Source of the DNA: Propionibacteriaceae bacterium
GTDB taxonomy: Bacteria; Actinomycetota; Actinomycetes; Propionibacteriales; Propionibacteriaceae
DNA: 41,261 bases
Assembly: GCA_031261485.1 (NCBI GenBank)
Contig: JAISJO010000071.1
Location: forward strand, 1 to 41,261
Direction: 5' to 3'
Part shown: piece by piece, positions 3,182 through 39,021 of the stretch
Layout of the letters: the number at the start of each line of letters is the position of its first letter
Numbering within the stretch: the first letter of the stretch is position 1
Translations under genes and position numbers: made by a program
The notes under the pieces: model-generated
The model's database searches: none
Seen by the model: only the letters and a program-made list of their open reading frames with translations
What the model was told of the DNA's origin: nothing

Positions 3182-4168
3182 CTAGTTCGTGTGCTCCTGG
3201 AGCCAGGACAACTGTTTGAGGACCATGTGTTCCTGCCCTCCCTCGTGGCCGTTCCAGCGCCACACTTCGATGGCCTTGTCCGGGTGAGGGTAGGCGTTGT
3301 ACGCAGCGAAGACCGTCGATGGGGGACAGGTGGTGTCCATCAGGCCGGTCGAGAACAGGGCGGGAGTATTGCCTAGTCGGGCGAAGTTGACCGAGTCAAA
3401 ATAGGCGAGAGTGTTGAAGACCTGGTCAGTGAGTTGGGGGTTGTACCGCAGGTACTCGCGGATTTCTGCGTAAGGGTTGTCGTCGGTCAAGCCGACAGCG
3501 CGGGGGAAATCGCAGAGGAAGGGCACATCCGGCATCGACCCAGCCAAAGGAATCTTGGTGAGTGCCGCCAGTCCTGTGAGGGCGAGGGTGAGCCCACCTC
3601 CCTGGGACGCGCCTGTGACAACGACCTTGTCCGGGTCCACGACATCGAGGGTGAGGATGGCTTGGAGGAAGCGGAGAGCATCGACGTACAAGCGGCGGTA
3701 ATAATACGTGTCGCGGTCGAGGATGCCAGAGGTCATGAGCCCAGGTTGTGCGGTGACCCCTCGACTGAGGTCCGGGTCATCGGTGGTGGGTCCGAAATTG
3801 CGGGTGCGCCAGCCCTGGGAACGAGAGTCCATGGTCGCGTGAACAAACCCAGCCTCACCGAACCAATCTTCCTTCCAAGGGTAGCCGCGCGAGCCCGAAT
3901 ATCCGATGAAGTGGAGGACCGTGGGACGACGACCATTCCCCGTTGGCACGCGCACCCAGGAGTGGATGCGGGCGCCGCCGTACCCCAGGAAGCTCACGTC
4001 GAAGACCTCGTACGCAGCGACGGGGAAGTCGACCTTCTCCACACGTACATCCAGGTCGGCCGGTTGTGCGTCGATGGTGTCCAGCCAGAATGCCTCGAAG
4101 TCGTCAGGCAGTCTCGCTTGTCCGGTGTACGAGCGCAACTGGTCCTCAGGGAAGTCAAAGAATGCCAT
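3182..4168 (-). CDS. Acetyl-xylan esterase / cephalosporin C deacetylase family (CE7-like) esterase
   Basis: Alpha/beta-hydrolase of the AXE1/CE7 family, which removes acetyl groups from xylo-oligosaccharides and related small substrates. Visible marks are the N-terminal LPDDFEAFWLDTID, the RSQGW segment (DSRSQGWRTRNFG), the nucleophile serine in GASQGGG, an acidic residue in GLMDTTCPPST and the late histidine in NGHEGG. At 328 residues it matches the family, and there is no signal peptide, so it is cytosolic and would act on imported oligosaccharides. The start ATG is fixed by a TAGGCT -10 seven bases upstream. The physiological substrate is inferred only from family; a GH43 enzyme is encoded at 8950-9840 but not in the same operon. 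Confidence 0.9.
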   Translation of the reverse strand: MAFFDFPEDQLRSYTGQARLPDDFEAFWLDTIDAQPADLDVRVEKVDFPVAAYEVFDVSFLGYGGARIHSWVRVPTGNGRRPTVLHFIGYSGSRGYPWKEDWFGEAGFVHATMDSRSQGWRTRNFGPTTDDPDLSRGVTAQPGLMTSGILDRDTYYYRRLYVDALRFLQAILTLDVVDPDKVVVTGASQGGGLTLALTGLAALTKIPLAGSMPDVPFLCDFPRAVGLTDDNPYAEIREYLRYNPQLTDQVFNTLAYFDSVNFARLGNTPALFSTGLMDTTCPPSTVFAAYNAYPHPDKAIEVWRWNGHEGGQEHMVLKQLSWLQEHTN

Positions 4169-4175
4169 GGGACAT

Positions 4176-4181
4176 AGCCTA
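4176..4181 (-). promoter_or_regulatory. -10 element (TAGGCT) of the CE7 esterase
   Basis: On the minus strand TAGGCT is followed by ATGTCCC and then the ATG at 4168, predicting a leaderless transcript. Confidence 0.6.
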
Positions 4182-4239
4182 GTGTGCGCTCCCCTCAGGC
4201 ACTCATCCCTCGACTATTCAGCAAACAGGCCAGGGCGGG

Positions 4240-4382
4240 CGAACTTTGGCCTCTTCCGGGCAGTTCTTATGCCCGGTGCCGTTCTTGGATCAAAATTCGC
4301 TCATTTCGGGGTCGATCTTGGGCGTACTTTGAGCCTACTTCGTGTGTGGCTGCCGAAATCGGTCGGTATCGGCCAAAGTTGG
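4240..4382. repeat. 143-bp element with terminal inverted repeats, copy A
   Basis: Left end CGAACTTTGGCC (4240-4251) and right end GGCCAAAGTTGG (4371-4382) are inverted repeats with one mismatch. The whole element aligns without gaps to 16207-16349, at about 66% identity by my hand count. The core around CCGTTCTTGG, CGAT-TTGGGCG and ACTTTGAGCC is best kept. It lies between the divergent esterase and xerD genes and has no open frame of note. It looks like a non-autonomous mobile element (MITE-like) relic. Confidence 0.7.
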
Positions 4383-4428
4383 ACTGATGACTTGTCGGGA
4401 GAGGGGACTGCGAACGTCACCGACTGCG

Positions 4429-4434
4429 TAGAGT
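4429..4434 (+). promoter_or_regulatory. -10 element (TAGAGT) of xerD
   Basis: TAGAGT, then six bases, then the ATG at 4441; no ribosome binding site. Leaderless architecture. Confidence 0.55.
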
Positions 4435-4440
4435 GGTGGC

Positions 4441-5370
4441 ATGCGCGCGATTCAGGCTGGGGTCAGGGTGTACCTCGACCATCTCAAGGCGGAGCGGGGC
4501 TTAAGTCCGCACACTCTCGCCGCCTATTCCCGCGACCTCGCCCGTTACAGTGAATACCTCGCTGAGAAGGGAATGAGCCAAGTCGAACAGGTCGATGCAC
4601 CGACCGTCGCCAAGTTTCCGGTATGGCTCACCCAACAAGGTCTGGCCCCGGCCAGCGTGGGACGGATGACGGTCGCCGTGCGAGGATTCCACCACTTCCT
4701 GGCTCAAGAGCAGATGACACCGAGCGATGTGGCCGCTGACGTGTCGCCTCCCGTCCCAGGCCGTCACCTTCCGAAAGCGCTCAGCGTCTCCCAAGTCAAT
4801 GCGCTCATTGCTGCGACGGGCGGGCGCGGGGTTGAGGTGACTGCGGACCAATTGTGCGACCTTGCCCTTGTGGAGTTCCTCTACGGGACCGGCGCTCGCA
4901 TTTCGGAGGCCGTGGAACTTGATGTGGATGATGTGACCCGCATGCTGTCAGACACGAGTTTAGGCTTGCGACTGTTCGGCAAGGGTGGCAAGGAAAGAAT
5001 AGTGCCCGTGGGGGCGTACGCCCGCGAGGCCCTGTCCGCCTGGCTCGTGAGGGGCCGTCCGCAACTTGCTCCCAAAGCGAAGAAAGCGACCCCAGCCCTC
5101 TTCCTCAACTCGCGCGGCAACCGCCTTTCGCGCCAAGTCGCTTTCAATCGCATCTCGGCTCTGGCTGGTCAGGCGGGCATCACCGAGCCCATCTCTCCAC
5201 ACACACTGCGTCACACGTACGCCACGCATCTGCTCGATGGGGGCGCGGATGTGCGTGTCGTACAGGAGTTGCTCGGCCATTCCTCGGTCGCCACGACCCA
5301 GATTTACACCTATGTCACCATCGACCATTTGCGCGAGGTGTACCGCTCAGCGCATCCACGCGCCCTGTGA
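4441..5370 (+). CDS. xerD: Site-specific tyrosine recombinase XerD
   Basis: Resolves chromosome dimers at dif together with XerC, cutting through a 3'-phosphotyrosine. The N-terminal SAM-like core-binding domain (residues ~5-90, YLDHLKAERGLSPHTLAAYSRDL) precedes the catalytic domain. Its conserved residues are Arg153 (GTGARISEA), the beta-hairpin lysine region 181-184 (GKGGKE), His254 and Arg257 (PHTLRHTYATHLL), His280 (LLGHSS) and the nucleophile Tyr289 (IYTYV). The 309-residue length fits XerD. It sits 54 bases before secA in the same direction, but secA has its own likely promoter. No prophage or integron features surround it, which supports the housekeeping role. Confidence 0.92.
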   Translation: MRAIQAGVRVYLDHLKAERGLSPHTLAAYSRDLARYSEYLAEKGMSQVEQVDAPTVAKFPVWLTQQGLAPASVGRMTVAVRGFHHFLAQEQMTPSDVAADVSPPVPGRHLPKALSVSQVNALIAATGGRGVEVTADQLCDLALVEFLYGTGARISEAVELDVDDVTRMLSDTSLGLRLFGKGGKERIVPVGAYAREALSAWLVRGRPQLAPKAKKATPALFLNSRGNRLSRQVAFNRISALAGQAGITEPISPHTLRHTYATHLLDGGADVRVVQELLGHSSVATTQIYTYVTIDHLREVYRSAHPRAL

Positions 5371-5386
5371 GTGTGCGGGAATGACG

Positions 5387-5392
5387 TAGAAT
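5387..5392 (+). promoter_or_regulatory. Likely -10 element (TAGAAT) for secA
   Basis: TAGAAT lies in the xerD-secA gap and would give a leader of about 25 bases ending in GAAAGCAGG before the ATG at 5425. Confidence 0.45.
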
Positions 5393-5424
5393 GAATCCTT
5401 GACAATCGACGAAAGCAGGCCTGG

Positions 5425-8184
5425 ATGAACCTCATGGACACGATTCTCCACATGGGAGAGGGCAAGTTCATCAAGCAGTTGGATACCGTGGCCAGACAGG
5501 TCGCCAGTATTGAGGACGACTTTGTCGCCATGAGCGACGACGAGCTCAAGGGGCAGACCGCCGACTTCAAGCAGCGGTTTGAGAACGGAGCCACGCTGGA
5601 CGAGCTGCTTCCCGAGGCCTTCGCTACGGTGAGAGAGGCGTCCAAGAGGGTCCTCGACAAGCGGCACTTCGACGTGCAGATCATGGGCGGCGCGGCGCTC
5701 CACAGGGGCACTATCGCTGAGATGAAGACTGGTGAAGGCAAGACGCTGGTCGCGCTGCTCCCGTCGTACCTCAATGCCCTCGCTGGTCCCGGTCGCGTCC
5801 ATGTCGTCACCGTCAACGATTACCTCGCCAAGTTCCAGTCCGAGCAGATGGGTCGTGTCCATCACTTCCTCGGCCTCGACACTGGCGTCATCCTCTCCCA
5901 GATGGACCCGGCTGAAAGGCGCGTCCAGTACTCCGCCGACGTGACATACGGAACGAACAATGAGTTTGGCTTCGATTACCTCCGCGACAATATGGCCTTG
6001 CGGTTGGAGGATTGTGTGCAGCGCGGGCACCATTTCGCCATCGTGGACGAGGTTGACTCCATCCTCATCGACGAGGCACGCACACCGCTCATCATCTCTG
6101 GTCCGTCGGACGACAACCCACGGTGGTACCCCGAGTTCGCCAAGATTGTCGAGGGGCTGCGCCGCGACGTCCATTACGAAGTGGACGAGAAGAAGCGCAC
6201 AGTGGCCGTCCTGGAACCCGGCATCACTGCCGTCGAGAAGCGCCTGGGCATCGAGAACCTGTACGAGTCGGCCAACACTCCGCTCATCTCCTTCCTCAAC
6301 AATGGCATCAAAGCCAAAGAGTTGTTCAAGCGCGACAAGGATTATGTGGTAACGGACGGGGAAGTGCTCATTGTTGATGAGTTCACCGGGCGCACCCTGG
6401 TCGGGCGGCGCTACTCCGAGGGTCTCCACCAAGCCCTTGAGGCCAAGGAGAACGTGGAAATCAAAGCCGAGTTCCAGACCTTGGCGACCATCACACTCCA
6501 GAATTACTTCAGGATGTACGAGAAGCTTTCCGGCATGACCGGCACGGCGAAGACCGAAGAATCCGAGTTTCAGAAGATTTACGGGCTGCGCGTCTTGCCT
6601 ATCAAGACGAATCTGCCCATGATTCGAGAAGACAAGAAAGACTTCGTGTACCGCACGGAGACCGCCAAGTTCGACGCCATCGTGGCTGACGTGGTGGAGC
6701 GCAACGAGAAGGGTCAGCCGATCCTTATCGGTACCGCTTCCGTGGCGAAGTCGGAGGAGATTTCGCGTCGCCTCAAGATGGCTGGCGTGCCCCACCAAGT
6801 CTTGAACGCGAAGCAGCATGCGCGTGAAGCCGCCATCATCGCTCTGGCCGGGCGTAAGGGTGCGGTGACTGTCGCCACCAACATGGCCGGTCGTGGCACC
6901 GACATCATCTTGGGCGGCAACCCGGAGTTCCTGGCCGATGCCCTCTTGCATGAGCGCGATCTAGACCCGGTGGAGACTCCTGACGAGTATGAAGCCGCCT
7001 GGCCGAAGGCTGTGGAGGAAATCACCGAGCAGGTCTCTGCCGAGCATGACGAGGTCGTCAAAGTGGGCGGGTTGTACGTCATCGGCTCCGAGCGCCACGA
7101 ATCTCGGCGCATCGACAACCAGTTGCGTGGTCGTTCCGGTCGTCAAGGCGACCCCGGCGAATCCCGTTTCTTCCTTTCGTTGCAAGACGACCTCATGAGG
7201 TTGTTCAAGGGCGACATGGTCGACTGGTTCATGCGGGCGCTGAAAGTGCCCGACGATGTGCCCATCGAAGACAAGCGCATCACCAAGATGATCCAAGGCG
7301 CGCAGGAGCAGGTCGAGGCCCAGCATTTCGAGATGCGCAAGAACGTGCTCAAGTACGACGATGTCATGAACCGCCAGCGCTACGTGGTGTACAAGGACCG
7401 TCGCCGAGTCCTAGAGGGCGCCGACATCGAGGAGCAACTGCGCGACACAGTGCACAAGGTTGTCACCCAGTACGTCGAGGGCGCGACCGAGGGGTACGTC
7501 GAAGACTGGGACCTGGACCAGTTGTGGGCACAGATGCAAACCTTGTACCCCGTTGGTCTCAAAGAGTCGGCCTACGAGGACGGGAAGACCCCCGATGGGG
7601 ACGACATCGACCAGAAGAGCCTTGTGGCAGCGTTCGCCGAGGATTCGAAGCGGGCGTACGACAAGCGCGAGGAAGACCTCACCCCCGACATCATGCGCAA
7701 AGTCGAACGGCAGGTGCTGTTGACCGTGCTGGACCGCAAGTGGCGCGAGCACTTGTACGAGATGGACTATCTGCGCGAAGGCATCGGTTTGCGGTCCATG
7801 GCCCAGCGCGACCCCCTCATCGAATACCAGCGCGAGGGCGCGGACATGTTCCTCCAGATGATGGATTCCGTCATGGAAGAAGTCGTGTCCTTCCTGTTCC
7901 GCATTCAGGTGCGAGTCACCGGCCAGGATGAGGAGCAAGCAGCGCCCATCAAGGTTCCCACCCAGGCGGACTTGCGTCGGGCCTCTCGTCGCAGTGTCGC
8001 CGCCGAAGAAGCAGCGGCCCGTTCGGAGATACATCTCACCGCACAAGGCTTGCTCGCGCCCGCCGTTCAGAAGGCCACGGTAATCACCAAGGGAGCCGCG
8101 ACGTCGGAACGTACGGTGCAGACAGCGCACCTGCGCGAGGCGCGTCCGGGGTCGTCGGGACGACGCAACAAGAAGAAGAAGTAA
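5425..8184 (+). CDS. secA: Preprotein translocase ATPase SecA
   Basis: Motor of the general secretory pathway, pushing preproteins through SecYEG. Visible motifs are Walker A in MKTGEGKT (residues ~98-106), the DEAD-type box in [14 protein letters not shown], the preprotein-binding region, and motif VI/IRA segments [14 protein letters not shown] and [17 protein letters not shown]. At 919 residues it is a full housekeeping SecA rather than a short SecA2. The C-terminus ends in a basic run (SGRRNKKKK) and lacks the Cys-rich zinc-binding SEC-C motif found in many SecAs. The Rv3235-like gene follows in the opposite direction, a neighbour typical of actinobacterial secA. The hpf gene often found beside it is not here. 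Confidence 0.98.
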
Positions 8185-8829: not shown

Positions 8830-8853
8830 TGTGTGGGGGTTAGCCGAGGCAGG
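8830..8853 (-). repeat. 24-bp exact dispersed repeat, copy 1
   Basis: Read on the minus strand it begins CCTGCCTCGG and ends CCCCCACACA. It is identical over 24 bases to 33384-33407, and two of the three preceding bases also match. Flanks differ. It is in the divergent gap upstream of the GH43 gene. Confidence 0.7.
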
Positions 8854-8934
8854 TCGGGGAGACACTACGTTGTTCATCACTGCGCCCCCGGCGACTGCGC
8901 AGAGGTGGCCGGGTCTGCCGTCGTCGGCGCTGCG

Positions 8935-16206: not shown

Positions 16207-16349
16207 CCAACTTTGGCCTTATCCGTGAGGTTTGGGCAGTGTCTTCCGTTCTTGGTGCAAAGTCAGTCGATTTCCGGGCCGATTTTGGGCGAACTTTGAG
16301 CCAACTTCGACCCGCAGGTGTGAAACCGCACGGAGTGGGCCAAAGTTGG
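16207..16349. repeat. 143-bp element with terminal inverted repeats, copy B
   Basis: Bounded by a perfect 12-bp inverted repeat, CCAACTTTGGCC (16207-16218) and GGCCAAAGTTGG (16338-16349). It is exactly as long as the copy at 4240-4382 and aligns to it without gaps. It lies between the convergent ends of the EamA gene and parC. An extra diverged right end (GGCCAAAATCAGCCGACG) occurs at 16413-16430, over the parC stop codon. Confidence 0.75.
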
Positions 16350-16420
16350 CCGACGCTGCGAGGGCCCAAGAGCGAAGGACAACCTGCCAGTGACGAACGT
16401 CGGCACGGGGCAGGCCAAAA

Positions 16421-18868
16421 TCAGCCGACGTGGCGTGTACCGAGAGCAGTGATGGGTTGTCCGGCGGGCGTGCCGGAAGCATCGCGGCGGGAATCCGGTG
16501 TGGGCAGGTTGATGGGAGTCCCTGATGCGGCTGCGGCCACCCCAGGAGCAGGCCCGGCCCAGGCCAGATGGAGGACGTCTTCGCCCTTGAGGAAACGGTG
16601 GGAACGAACCCCTCCGGTCGCACGGCCCTTGGGTGGGTACAGGTCGTAGGCCGTCACCTTGACTGTACCCACGTCGGTGCCGGGCAAAGCTTCAGACGAC
16701 CCTGCCACGGTGACGACCTGGGAATCCTCGGGCGGCACGGCCCCGAAGAAGACCACAGAACACCCAGGTGACAAGGAGATACCTGCCATCCCGCCGCCGG
16801 AACGACCCTGTGGGCGCACCTTGTCGGCTCCGAAACGCAGCAGGGAAGAGTCAGAGGCGATGAACGTCAGGTCCACCGCGTCGCAGGTCAACTCGACTGC
16901 GCCGACCACCTCGTCGCCGTCGTCGAGACGCATGATGTCCCAGGCGTCTTTGGTTATCACGTCGGGATTGCAGCGCTTGACGACGCCACGTTTGGTGCCC
17001 AGGGCCCAGCCGTACGTCTGCTCGTCGAGAGTGGTCAACCCCAGTGCCTTCTCGCCGACTTCCAGAACGACGAGCTCTTTCAGTGGCACACCGCCACCCA
17101 ATCCGACTGCCGAGGCGGTGGGAGGGATGGCGGGAGTTTCGATGGCAGCCAGGCGGATGATCCGTCCCCGTGAAGTGAGCACACCGATGTCGGAGCGCGT
17201 GCGTGTACGAATCACAGACCGCAGAGCGTCGTGGGCCAGACGCGGCCCGGAATCGGGGGGCACATCCTCGGTGTCCATGCGCGCGACAAGCCCTGTCGTG
17301 GACAGGAAGACCCAGCAGGGTTGGTCCGGCACCTCAATCTCCACGGCTCCTCCACCCTTGGCCATCGCCGCCACGACAGGGGAGACCCCGGCCTCGGAGA
17401 GCAGGATGGTGCGTCGGGGAGTGCCGAATTGGCGGGCGACGTCGTCGAGGTCGGATTCAACGACCGTCTTCAACCGTGTTGGGTCGGCGATGATAGCTTC
17501 CAGGCCTCGGATGCGCTCGTTGAGGTCGTCACGCTCGGATTCCAGTTCGAGGCGGGATAGCTTGGTGAGGCGGCGCAACTGCATGTCCAGGATGTACGTC
17601 GCTTGTACTTCACTCAGGTCGAAGGCGTCCATGAGGCGGGCACGCGCTTGTGCGACGTCATCGGATGTGCGGATGATGGCGATGACGTCGTCAATGTCGA
17701 GGATGGCGACGAGGAGCCCGTTGACCAGGTGCAACCTGTCTGTGGCCTTGGCGAGCTGGAACTGAGCGCGTCGCATGGTGACAGTGAGGCGATGGTCCAG
17801 ATAGACCCGCAGCAATTCCTTGAGTGACAAGGTGCGGGGCTGCCCGTCGACGAGTGCGACCGCGTTGATGGAGAAGGAGTCTTCCAGCTTGGTGTGCTTG
17901 AACAACTGTTCCAACAGGACGTCGGGGTTGATGCCGTTCTTGACTTCGATGACGAGTCGGGTCCCATGGGCCAGGTCGGTGAGGTCCTTGATGTCGGCGA
18001 TGCCTGTCAGGACTTTCTTCTCGACTTGGGCCTTGACCTGTTCCATGATCTTCTCAGGCCCGATGAGGTACGGAAGTTCCGTGACGACGATGCCTTTGCG
18101 TCGCGCGGAGACCTGCTCGATGCGGGTGGTCGCGCGAATCTTGAACGCACCGCGTCCAGTCTCGTAGGCGTCCTTGATACCGTCCAGTCCGATGATCTTG
18201 CCGCCTGTGGGCAGGTCGGGACCCGGAATGAAACGCATGAGGTCTTCGGTGGTGGCCTCAGGATTGTCCAGGAGTAGCTTGAGGGCGCCGACGACTTCCA
18301 CCAGGTTGTGGGGAGCCATATTGGTGGCCATGCCGACAGCGATGCCAGACGCCCCGTTGACGAGCAGGTTTGGGAAGGCGGCGGGCAAGACGACTGGCTC
18401 GGATTCTTTGCCGTCGTAGTTCGGGCGGAAGTCCACGACGTCTTCGTCGAGTCCGGACGTCATGGCGAGTGCGGCGGGAGCCATGCGACATTCGGTGTAC
18501 CTCATGGCGGCTGGCCCAGAATCGAGGGAACCAAAGTTGCCATGACCGTCCACGAGGGGCAGTCTTTCCGCCCAAGGTTGTCCGATGCGTACAAGTGCGT
18601 CATAGATGGCGGTGTCACCGTGAGGGTGCAGGATGCCCATGACCTGCCCGACCACGCGAGCACACTTGACGTGCGGTTTGTCTGGACGTATCCCCATGTC
18701 ATCCATGGTGTACAAGATACGTCGCTGGACCGGTTTCAACCCGTCGCGGGCATCAGGTAGAGCGCGGGCGTAAATGACCGAATAGGCGTACTCCAGGAAG
18801 GAGGTTTCCATTTCCTCCTCAACCTCGACGTCGAGTATCCGCTCGCCCTCGTCGTCGCCATTGGCCAC
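16421..18868 (-). CDS. parC: DNA topoisomerase IV subunit A (GyrA/ParC family)
   Basis: DNA-cutting subunit of a type IIA topoisomerase that decatenates daughter chromosomes with ParE. The catalytic tyrosine is Tyr124 in AMRYTECRM. The quinolone pocket reads HPHGDTAIYDALV, with Thr86 and Asp90 at the positions of E. coli GyrA Ser83 and Asp87. The C-terminal pinwheel has only a degenerate GyrA box (PQGRSGGGMAGI), and the gene sits in the sepH neighbourhood where actinobacterial parC is usual. Both favour ParC over GyrA. The GTG at 18868 was chosen because GGGAGG lies seven bases before it; a TTG 27 bases further upstream has nothing comparable. The product is 815 residues. parE is not in the window. 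Confidence 0.85.
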   Translation of the reverse strand: MANGDDEGERILDVEVEEEMETSFLEYAYSVIYARALPDARDGLKPVQRRILYTMDDMGIRPDKPHVKCARVVGQVMGILHPHGDTAIYDALVRIGQPWAERLPLVDGHGNFGSLDSGPAAMRYTECRMAPAALAMTSGLDEDVVDFRPNYDGKESEPVVLPAAFPNLLVNGASGIAVGMATNMAPHNLVEVVGALKLLLDNPEATTEDLMRFIPGPDLPTGGKIIGLDGIKDAYETGRGAFKIRATTRIEQVSARRKGIVVTELPYLIGPEKIMEQVKAQVEKKVLTGIADIKDLTDLAHGTRLVIEVKNGINPDVLLEQLFKHTKLEDSFSINAVALVDGQPRTLSLKELLRVYLDHRLTVTMRRAQFQLAKATDRLHLVNGLLVAILDIDDVIAIIRTSDDVAQARARLMDAFDLSEVQATYILDMQLRRLTKLSRLELESERDDLNERIRGLEAIIADPTRLKTVVESDLDDVARQFGTPRRTILLSEAGVSPVVAAMAKGGGAVEIEVPDQPCWVFLSTTGLVARMDTEDVPPDSGPRLAHDALRSVIRTRTRSDIGVLTSRGRIIRLAAIETPAIPPTASAVGLGGGVPLKELVVLEVGEKALGLTTLDEQTYGWALGTKRGVVKRCNPDVITKDAWDIMRLDDGDEVVGAVELTCDAVDLTFIASDSSLLRFGADKVRPQGRSGGGMAGISLSPGCSVVFFGAVPPEDSQVVTVAGSSEALPGTDVGTVKVTAYDLYPPKGRATGGVRSHRFLKGEDVLHLAWAGPAPGVAAAASGTPINLPTPDSRRDASGTPAGQPITALGTRHVG

Positions 18869-33368: not shown

Positions 33369-33383
33369 CTTTGTTATCCCCGT

Positions 33384-33407
33384 CCTGCCTCGGCTAACCC
33401 CCACACA
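33384..33407 (+). repeat. 24-bp exact dispersed repeat, copy 2
   Basis: Identical to the minus strand of 8830-8853, starting CCTGCCTCGG and ending CCCCCACACA. Here it lies 15 bases after the dxs stop, in the gap between convergent genes. Confidence 0.7.
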
Positions 33408-33688
33408 TCCTCGGGCGGCCGCCCTGTGTGCACAACCCATCCGTAAACGTGCTCAATCAGTGCCTTTCTGACGTTTGAGGATGGGAAATGTCGCCAAAAT
33501 CGCTCGTGGGACGACATTTCCCATCCGCAACCGTCGCGGAGCGGCCCAATTGGTCCATTTGAGGATGGTTACGTATGAAGTCAAAGAAATCCACTTGGTG
33601 TGCGTGTGATTATCACCTTACGTCCACAGGAATACGGTCCTGAGGCGTGCGGACAGCCTCCGAGCAGAGCACCGCCCTTACTCGTGCA
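33408..33688. other. Intergenic stretch between convergent dxs and rnd
   Basis: About 280 bases without a convincing gene. It holds the 15-bp stem described separately and two copies of TTTGAGGATGG (33474-33484 and 33558-33568). Each copy is followed by an ATG opening a short frame: 33488-33562 (24 codons) and 33575-33643 (22 codons, beginning M-K-S-K-K-S-T-W-C-A-C). GAGG in each repeat is at Shine-Dalgarno distance, but the peptides match nothing I know. The rest shows no structure. Confidence 0.4.
33479..33526. terminator. Perfect 15-bp inverted repeat between convergent genes
   Basis: GGATGGGAAATGTCG (33479-33493) and CGACATTTCCCATCC (33512-33526) are exact inverted repeats with an 18-base loop. 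It lies between the ends of dxs and rnd, where a bidirectional terminator would be expected. There is no T-run on either side and the loop is long, so it may instead be an operator or an element relic. Confidence 0.45.
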
Positions 33689-38735: not shown

Positions 38736-38758
38736 AAGGACCTCCACAGGAGGTTCTT
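38736..38758. terminator. Short hairpin before the 75-bp repeats
   Basis: AAGGACCTCC, ACA, GGAGGTTCTT: a 10-bp stem with one G-T pair. Confidence 0.35.
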
Positions 38759-38763
38759 GTAGC

Positions 38764-38970
38764 GTACGGCCCGGCAGGGTTGACTGAACTGGGCGGAGCC
38801 CGGTGAGGGAGCACCCGCCACAAGGCGGTTTCTTCTGGGTACGGCCCGGCAGGGTTGACTGAACTGGGCGGAGCCCGGTGAGGGAGCACCCGCCACAAGA
38901 CGGTTTCTTCTGGGTACGACCCGGCAGGGTTGACCGAATCGGACGAAGTCTGGTGAGGGAGCACCCGCCG
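38764..38970. repeat. Three tandem copies of a 75-bp unit
   Basis: Units begin at 38764, 38839 and 38914 with GTACGGCCCGGCAGGG or GTACGACCCGGCAGGG. The first two differ by very few bases. The third is more diverged and loses similarity after about 57 bases. Each unit holds CTGGGC-GGA-GCCCGG (a stem), and the first holds CCGCC-ACAA-GGCGG followed by TTTCTTCT. The zone fills the ~430-base gap between tRNA-Tyr and tRNA-Thr. Reading frames through it exist because 75 is divisible by three, but they show no sign of being genes. Confidence 0.8.
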
Positions 38971-39021
38971 AAGTGCGAATGCTCCCCATGTCGATGGATG
39001 TCGACGTGCGGCCCCGCCCAC

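Follow-up and report, generated by a model that had tools for sequence, protein, structure and literature searches.

Dispersed four-site palindromic elements in a Propionibacteriaceae genome and its genus suggest DNA sites for a protein whose target word changes by species

Short palindromic repeats in bacterial genomes are usually taken for MITEs undergoing decay or for RNA hairpins. Bacterial MITEs and related intergenic palindromic repeats include ERIC, Correia, RUP, YPAL and bcr1, while DNA-uptake sequences (DUS), Chi and KOPS are short species-specific recognition words, and inverted multi-site layouts are found in integron attC sites, Tn3-derived TIMEs and resolvase res sites. The element investigated here, family F1, most resembles REP repeats and the MITE/ERIC class of dispersed palindromic repeats. 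With the MITE/ERIC type it shares a size of 100–200 bp, inverted ends, intergenic placement and dozens of copies. It differs from them in having four ordered sites at fixed spacing, in the occurrence of several motif dialects on one scaffold, which is an unusual property, and in a length that is nearly invariant despite randomised free positions, with a weak hint at most of a target duplication. Compared with attC, TIMEs and res sites, the spacing and motifs of F1 appear different. MITE families of widely varying size are described in the review PMC10969869, for example Chunjie at 178–235 bp. REP repeats are described in PMC3733652 as carrying a GTAG or CGTC tag at the foot of the hairpin and, at 20–40 bp, are shorter than the 143 bp of F1. 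No description of the F1 family was found in the literature searched.

The window, i.e. the whole stretch of 41,261 nucleotides analysed here, corresponds to contig C30 in a draft genome of 2.82 Mb (G000; 112 contigs, 98% complete), and comparisons within the genus covered 19 genomes, namely G000 and those of 18 other species. The closest named relative found for the ParC-type protein was from the Propionibacteriaceae MAG Gsp477_bin141 (74% identical). The original prediction described two elements, A and B, of the same length and alignable without gaps at about two-thirds identity, which was confirmed (143 bp each, 94/143 positions identical). Using B as a blastn query against G000, A was recovered at E = 1.3e-9 over 101 bp among 39 matches in all, and the similarity of the two is far above chance. 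The predicted terminal inverted repeats were also recovered, with A bounded by CGAACTTTGGCC/GGCCAAAGTTGG (11/12) and B by CCAACTTTGGCC/GGCCAAAGTTGG (12/12), and the gene neighbourhoods bear out that one copy lies in a divergent and the other in a convergent gap: A has a divergent acetyl-xylan-esterase-like gene on one side and a phage-integrase (XerC/XerD-type) family gene on the other, whereas B is flanked by a convergent EamA-family gene and a gene for a topoisomerase IV/gyrase subunit A. A third, partial right end proposed near 16413–16430 is real but weak, being a lone degenerate site (CG-GGGCA-GGCCAAAATCAG) that lies 56 bp past the end of B, overlaps the end of the topoisomerase gene and may be a chance match. 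Other repeats are also present in the window: a 75-bp unit occurs three times in tandem at 38748–38972 between tRNA-Tyr and tRNA-Thr genes (91% and 76% identity to the first unit), and pieces of a further dispersed, palindrome-rich repeat family lie at 8830–8860 and 33377–33420, a family that also flanks F1 copies (L068, L074, L106, L107).

A search of the genome with the 143-bp element placed family F1 at 55 intergenic positions in G000. The sequence model used (R1) was built from 26 F1 copies and, with 150 of 970 first-look candidates scored, gave 110 matches over both strands, corresponding to the 55 distinct places; owing to the dyad symmetry of the element, nearly all copies are matched on either strand. 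Within these 150 scored candidates the lowest full-length copy reached 61 bits, and the lower-scoring matches listed were all truncated or half copies. An untruncated copy consists of four 19-bp sites, S, ordered S+ S- S+ S-, where S comprises a 12-bp motif, 5 bp and CG. The sites occupy alignment columns 1–19 (S+), 41–59 (S-), 85–103 (S+) and 125–143 (S-), with spacers of 21, 25 and 21 bp, so that within each half the two sites are mutually inverted, as are the two halves themselves, giving the overall dyad symmetry. The ACTTTG core of the inner sites is offset by one base compared to the outer sites, and conservation extends two bases past the ends (G at -2 in 40/51, C at +2 in 39/51). At the centre, 31 of 42 copies have TTT on both arms, nine have T and then A, and two are ambiguous. 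The untruncated copies (n = 51) are of nearly constant length, 42 being 143 bp, six 144 bp, two 142 bp and one 132 bp. A 59-bp solo half at L086:7223 (C67:17633–17691 of G000) has outer-type sites at both ends and looks as if 84 bp had been lost between two CGGAG steps.

With gene calls from a simple gene caller of our own, no F1 copy overlaps a predicted gene end by more than 16 bp, and the 55 copies lie in divergent (15), convergent (15) and co-directional (21) gaps or at contig edges (4). Divergent and convergent gaps are enriched at F1 (30/51 vs 89/239 neighbouring gene pairs at the same loci; Fisher p = 0.007), which could be explained by the small spaces within operons. The word ACTTTGGCCN5CG, matched by both outer S sites of copy A, occurs 82 times in G000 compared to three times for the reversed control; 77 occurrences are in elements, another is separated from an element by 24 bp, and the remaining four are inside open frames. 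In contrast to the DUS, Chi and KOPS words, the F1 word is thus nearly confined to its cassette, with 5/82 occurrences outside elements. Other intergenic repeats are abundant in G000 and some directly adjoin F1. A third repeat, roughly 150 bp long (GAGGCGGTGGCTGCGCCACTTTACCGCCTCG...CCCCAAATCGGTGGGACGATTTG), is located beside the F1 copies L063, L064, L100, L072 and L098, and in L063 and L064 direct copies of it lie on both sides of F1.

Table 1 Coordinates of the four-site elements and related features in the window.
Feature	Position	Strand	Support
Copy A, family F1	4240-4382	+	R1 92 bits, R2 106 bits
Copy A sites	S+ 4240-4258, S- 4280-4298, S+ 4324-4342, S- 4364-4382		
Copy A centre, columns 60-84, polar in most F1 copies	4299-4323	+	columns conserved, n = 42 copies
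Copy B, family F1	16207-16349	+	R1 98 bits, R2 125 bits
Copy B sites	S+ 16207-16225, S- 16247-16265, S+ 16291-16309, S- 16331-16349		
Lone degenerate S site, CG-N5-GGCCAAAATCAG	16406-16424	-	read from sequence, 9/12 motif bases
F2 element, CACAACCCATCC-GTAAA-CG ...	33431-33573	+	blastn to L107 element, architecture scan

The same layout was also found with other motifs. A scan for the layout alone, which is of low sensitivity (25 of the 55 known F1 copies recovered), revealed a second family in G000, F2, with the motif CATAACCCATCC. By blastn, F2 gave 12 matches at ten places, all of them in G000 among the 19 genomes searched, and the ten extracted elements are each 144 bp as aligned. The F2 element of the window sits between convergent dxs-like and RNase-D-like genes, and its right end lacks one base, making the end coordinate approximate. 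Weak matches of the F1 model in G014 and G015 have the same layout but a different motif. In G014, family F3 (TCATCTTCAGCC) comprises 17 copies, 16 of them of one length; six elements read in G015 carry GTGAAATTGACC or a motif near it, and three full elements and one partial element in G002 have a variable motif of about ACGGGGC or ACCCCGC. Such same-layout families with other motifs are clear in G014 and G015 and weaker in G002. F1, F3 and one F5 element (from G015) could be aligned almost without gaps, with 12 invariant columns that include the CC at the end of the motif and most CG bases. A covariance model built from these (R2) recovered four of the ten F2 elements at E < 0.01, F2 being absent from its training set. 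Across the 19 genus genomes, with up to 150 candidates scored in each, R2 gave 108 matches in G000, 32 in G014, 21 in G015, six in G013 and five in G002, and none in the other 14. Strongly decayed copies were possibly missed, because 150 of 970 (R1) and 150 of 802 (R2) first-look candidates were scored in the genome searches. Considered across species, the four-site elements suggest sites for a protein whose target word changes from one species to another.

Several further candidates were assessed. The R2 matches in G013, which look mostly like 61-bp two-site palindromes, are doubtful and were not counted as members; these palindromes of about 61 bp (CGCGTTAGTATGAAAACG...CGTTTTCATACTAACGCG; L322, L325, L332 and L335, in tandem in L325) are possibly a two-site relative. 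A weak F1-model match in G010 was not symmetric and was taken as chance, and the remaining matches of the architecture scan were GC-rich simple words, with one match in each shuffled control. When 38 loci of other genus members were screened with profiles of F1, F2 and F3, nothing matched at E ≤ 0.01; these loci were fetched via the parC and xerD regions and consist mostly of parC/xerD loci with a few weaker partial matches. In one of them (L141 in G014, near parC) there is an element-like palindrome, present in a single copy, whose motif (ACTCCAG) looks like yet another variant. The F1 pattern gave no match in GTDB contigs, a set from which G000 itself is perhaps absent, and regarding viral carriers the F1 and F3 patterns gave none in IMG/VR; a single IMG/VR match of the F2 pattern, covering about 26 profile positions at E 0.006, was taken as chance. 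Between families the spacers resemble one another modestly, with z 2.1 to 2.5 for pairs involving F1 and z 2.3 and 4.5 for F2–F3; the symmetrisation of F2 was out of register in this comparison. Elements of G000 and G014 share two neighbours, an M18 aminopeptidase gene, whose stop the elements follow at 25 and 17 bp, and a GroEL-type chaperonin gene, where the distances from the stop are about 400 and 330 bp. Positional conservation between the two genomes was rejected, as two strong shared neighbours were observed against two to three expected by a rough estimate; the spacer identity of these two pairs is ordinary.

To describe how F1 copies differ, site columns and free columns were taken from the same alignment, the free ones being picked for low information. 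At the 25 free columns, F1 copies agree at 0.304 compared to 0.320 expected, i.e. no better than chance, and 28 of 42 copies have a nearest relative that, at these columns, resembles them no more than chance predicts. Those 28 copies mismatch the consensus at 3.2% in the 44 site columns and at 58.1% in the free columns, a contrast that is exaggerated because both column classes derive from one consensus. Since sites were kept while free positions were randomised, the F1 copies look individually maintained. L063 and L064, which agree at 96% of free columns, are recent near-copies; these two together with L100, as well as the group L068/L074/L076, share sequence outside the element too, showing that their copying was not confined to the 143 bp. 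Maintenance of each copy would be expected of a purely host-functional chromosomal site that serves nucleoid or segregation architecture and was never mobile, and the intergenic placement, the fixed geometry and the confinement of ACTTTGGCCN5CG to the cassette would agree with such a role. We nevertheless judge this improbable, considering that 14 of 19 genus genomes are without a match (up to 150 candidates scored each), that copy number differs widely between genomes, that two dialects coexist in one genome, and that recent duplicates carry their flanks with them.

The original prediction favoured a transposed, non-autonomous element. This is partly supported. The dispersal of the copies over all gene contexts, their non-coding nature and their inverted ends speak for it, as does the lack of F1, F2 and F3 profile matches (E ≤ 0.01) at the 38 loci of other genus members mentioned above; a partner transposase and a convincing empty site were not found. 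F1 displays the general features of MITEs (terminal inverted repeats, short length, no coding capacity, many copies), and a MITE-like selfish palindromic family moved in trans, in which recognition of the ends at multiple sites explains the four sites and the motif families follow their transposases, is a possible but less than probable reading. Consistent with it are the 55 dispersed copies, the restriction of the F1 motif family to one species, the near-copies L063 and L064, and the lack of positional conservation between G000 and G014 above the rough chance estimate. Target duplications were assessed for 51 copies using ten lengths at nine offsets and adjacent repeats of 2–14 bp. The best direct repeat in F1 flanks was 8 bp at the ends (32.4% vs 26.9% shuffled, z 2.8), with two copies at ≥6/8 compared to 0.3 expected. 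This signal, which also speaks for the MITE-like reading, is a hint at most, because it loses significance once all 13 lengths are allowed for and is absent from F2 (10 copies) and F3 (16 copies).

Joining the flanks of 53 F1 copies gave no convincing empty site in a sequence set where G000 is the one genome of its species; three junction-spanning matches were obtained, two weak ones in other organisms (E 0.016 and 0.67) and one self-match. No full-length or autonomous element with the same ends was found in the draft genome, the R1 matches (150 of 970 candidates scored) including only two half copies. No transposase was detected among ten neighbouring proteins scanned, and no DDE transposase among six window proteins scanned. 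At L105 (contig C55 of G000, 3405–6831), two related F1 copies of like orientation enclose an AEP-TOTE primase-helicase gene and a second gene, whose match to sigma-70 region 4 is weak and falls short of the curated cut-off. AEP-TOTE is not supported as a partner: the family is present in G000, G013, G015 and G009 and was not found in G014 (88% complete). The sequence shared beyond the element in the two groups named above also speaks against the MITE-like reading, and most copies are randomised yet intact at their sites, which pure decay after insertion would not yield. Further points against a simple decaying MITE are that the inside of the element is as ordered as its ends and that randomised copies retain their sites and mostly their length. 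The family is therefore not filed as a MITE, since duplication and empty sites were not established and a partner transposase was not found.

The information profile of F1 is symmetric about the dyad (r = 0.81), and the dyad partners vary independently of each other (1681 Watson-Crick cells vs 1726 expected, of 2982). In the 26-row alignment 65.0% of cells are paired compared to 68.4% after shuffling, with 500/500 shuffles at or above the observed value, the two half hairpins give no covariation signal, and the alifold covariation term is unfavourable (+0.41). Conserved positions with covarying stems, the outcome that would have pointed to a structured RNA, thus did not occur within F1. Dyad partners that pair below all shuffles argue against an RNA or hairpin constraint and fit DNA read by a protein. 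A structured RNA or single-stranded DNA hairpin family of the REP/RAYT type could be argued from the strong folding of A and B on either strand (z -4.5 to -5.2) and from partners that change in concert between families (74 vs 29.8 cells). However, such folding is expected of palindromes, and the concerted change arises because the whole motif is exchanged. Above Rfam 15 gathering scores, the only matches in the window were three tRNAs. The Y1 transposase family (PF01797) has no member in G000, five in G014 and four in G012, and at the Y1 loci of the latter two genomes F1, F2 and F3 matches are at chance level only (E 0.4 or worse), for which reason a RAYT partner of F1 in G000 was rejected. 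At these loci (L305–L312) the Y1 (RAYT-like) genes are accompanied by their own short repeats, which bear no relation to the four-site elements. Membership of the REP/RAYT group is excluded by two features, as G000 has no RAYT family match and F1 no compensatory hairpin change. The RNA/hairpin reading was discarded on the covariation results; it is largely refuted, and we consider it very improbable.

The alternating asymmetric sites, the fixed spacing, the conserved centre, the absence of covariation and the kept sites point to a protein-recognition cassette, and symmetric conservation without covariation is as expected for double-stranded DNA under a symmetric protein assembly. Our best explanation, which we regard as an evenly balanced call, is that F1 is a dispersed DNA recognition cassette for a predicted protein, spread by copying and then kept by selection. 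A DNA-binding protein dedicated to the cassette, with a separate one probably serving each motif family, would assemble on the four sites as double-stranded DNA. The cassette would have spread by copying, for which a transposase reading the four sites, or copying together with flanks by recombination, would fit as a route, and many F1 copies would now be kept individually by selection. When the specificity of the protein shifts, a new motif family may expand on the old scaffold, and each species would thus have its own motif dialect. Counting against the cassette reading, the two dialects in G000 call for two proteins or one broad one, and the 8-bp flank repeat, if real, would favour ordinary transposition.

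A wider and more speculative proposal, which we think rather unlikely, is a genus-limited co-evolution of a DNA-binding protein with dozens of dispersed four-site cassettes that act as species dialects. The cassettes would form nucleoprotein complexes of about 143 bp, each of them retained individually to serve a role across the chromosome, and replacing the motif at all four sites while the scaffold stays constant would create a new dialect. F1 is statistically dissectable, with symmetric conservation without covariation, fixed geometry set against random free positions, and interchangeable motifs. If the cassette reading is true, nature would here provide matched DNA words, and probably matching DNA-binding proteins, for studying how recognition specificity changes at many sites at once.
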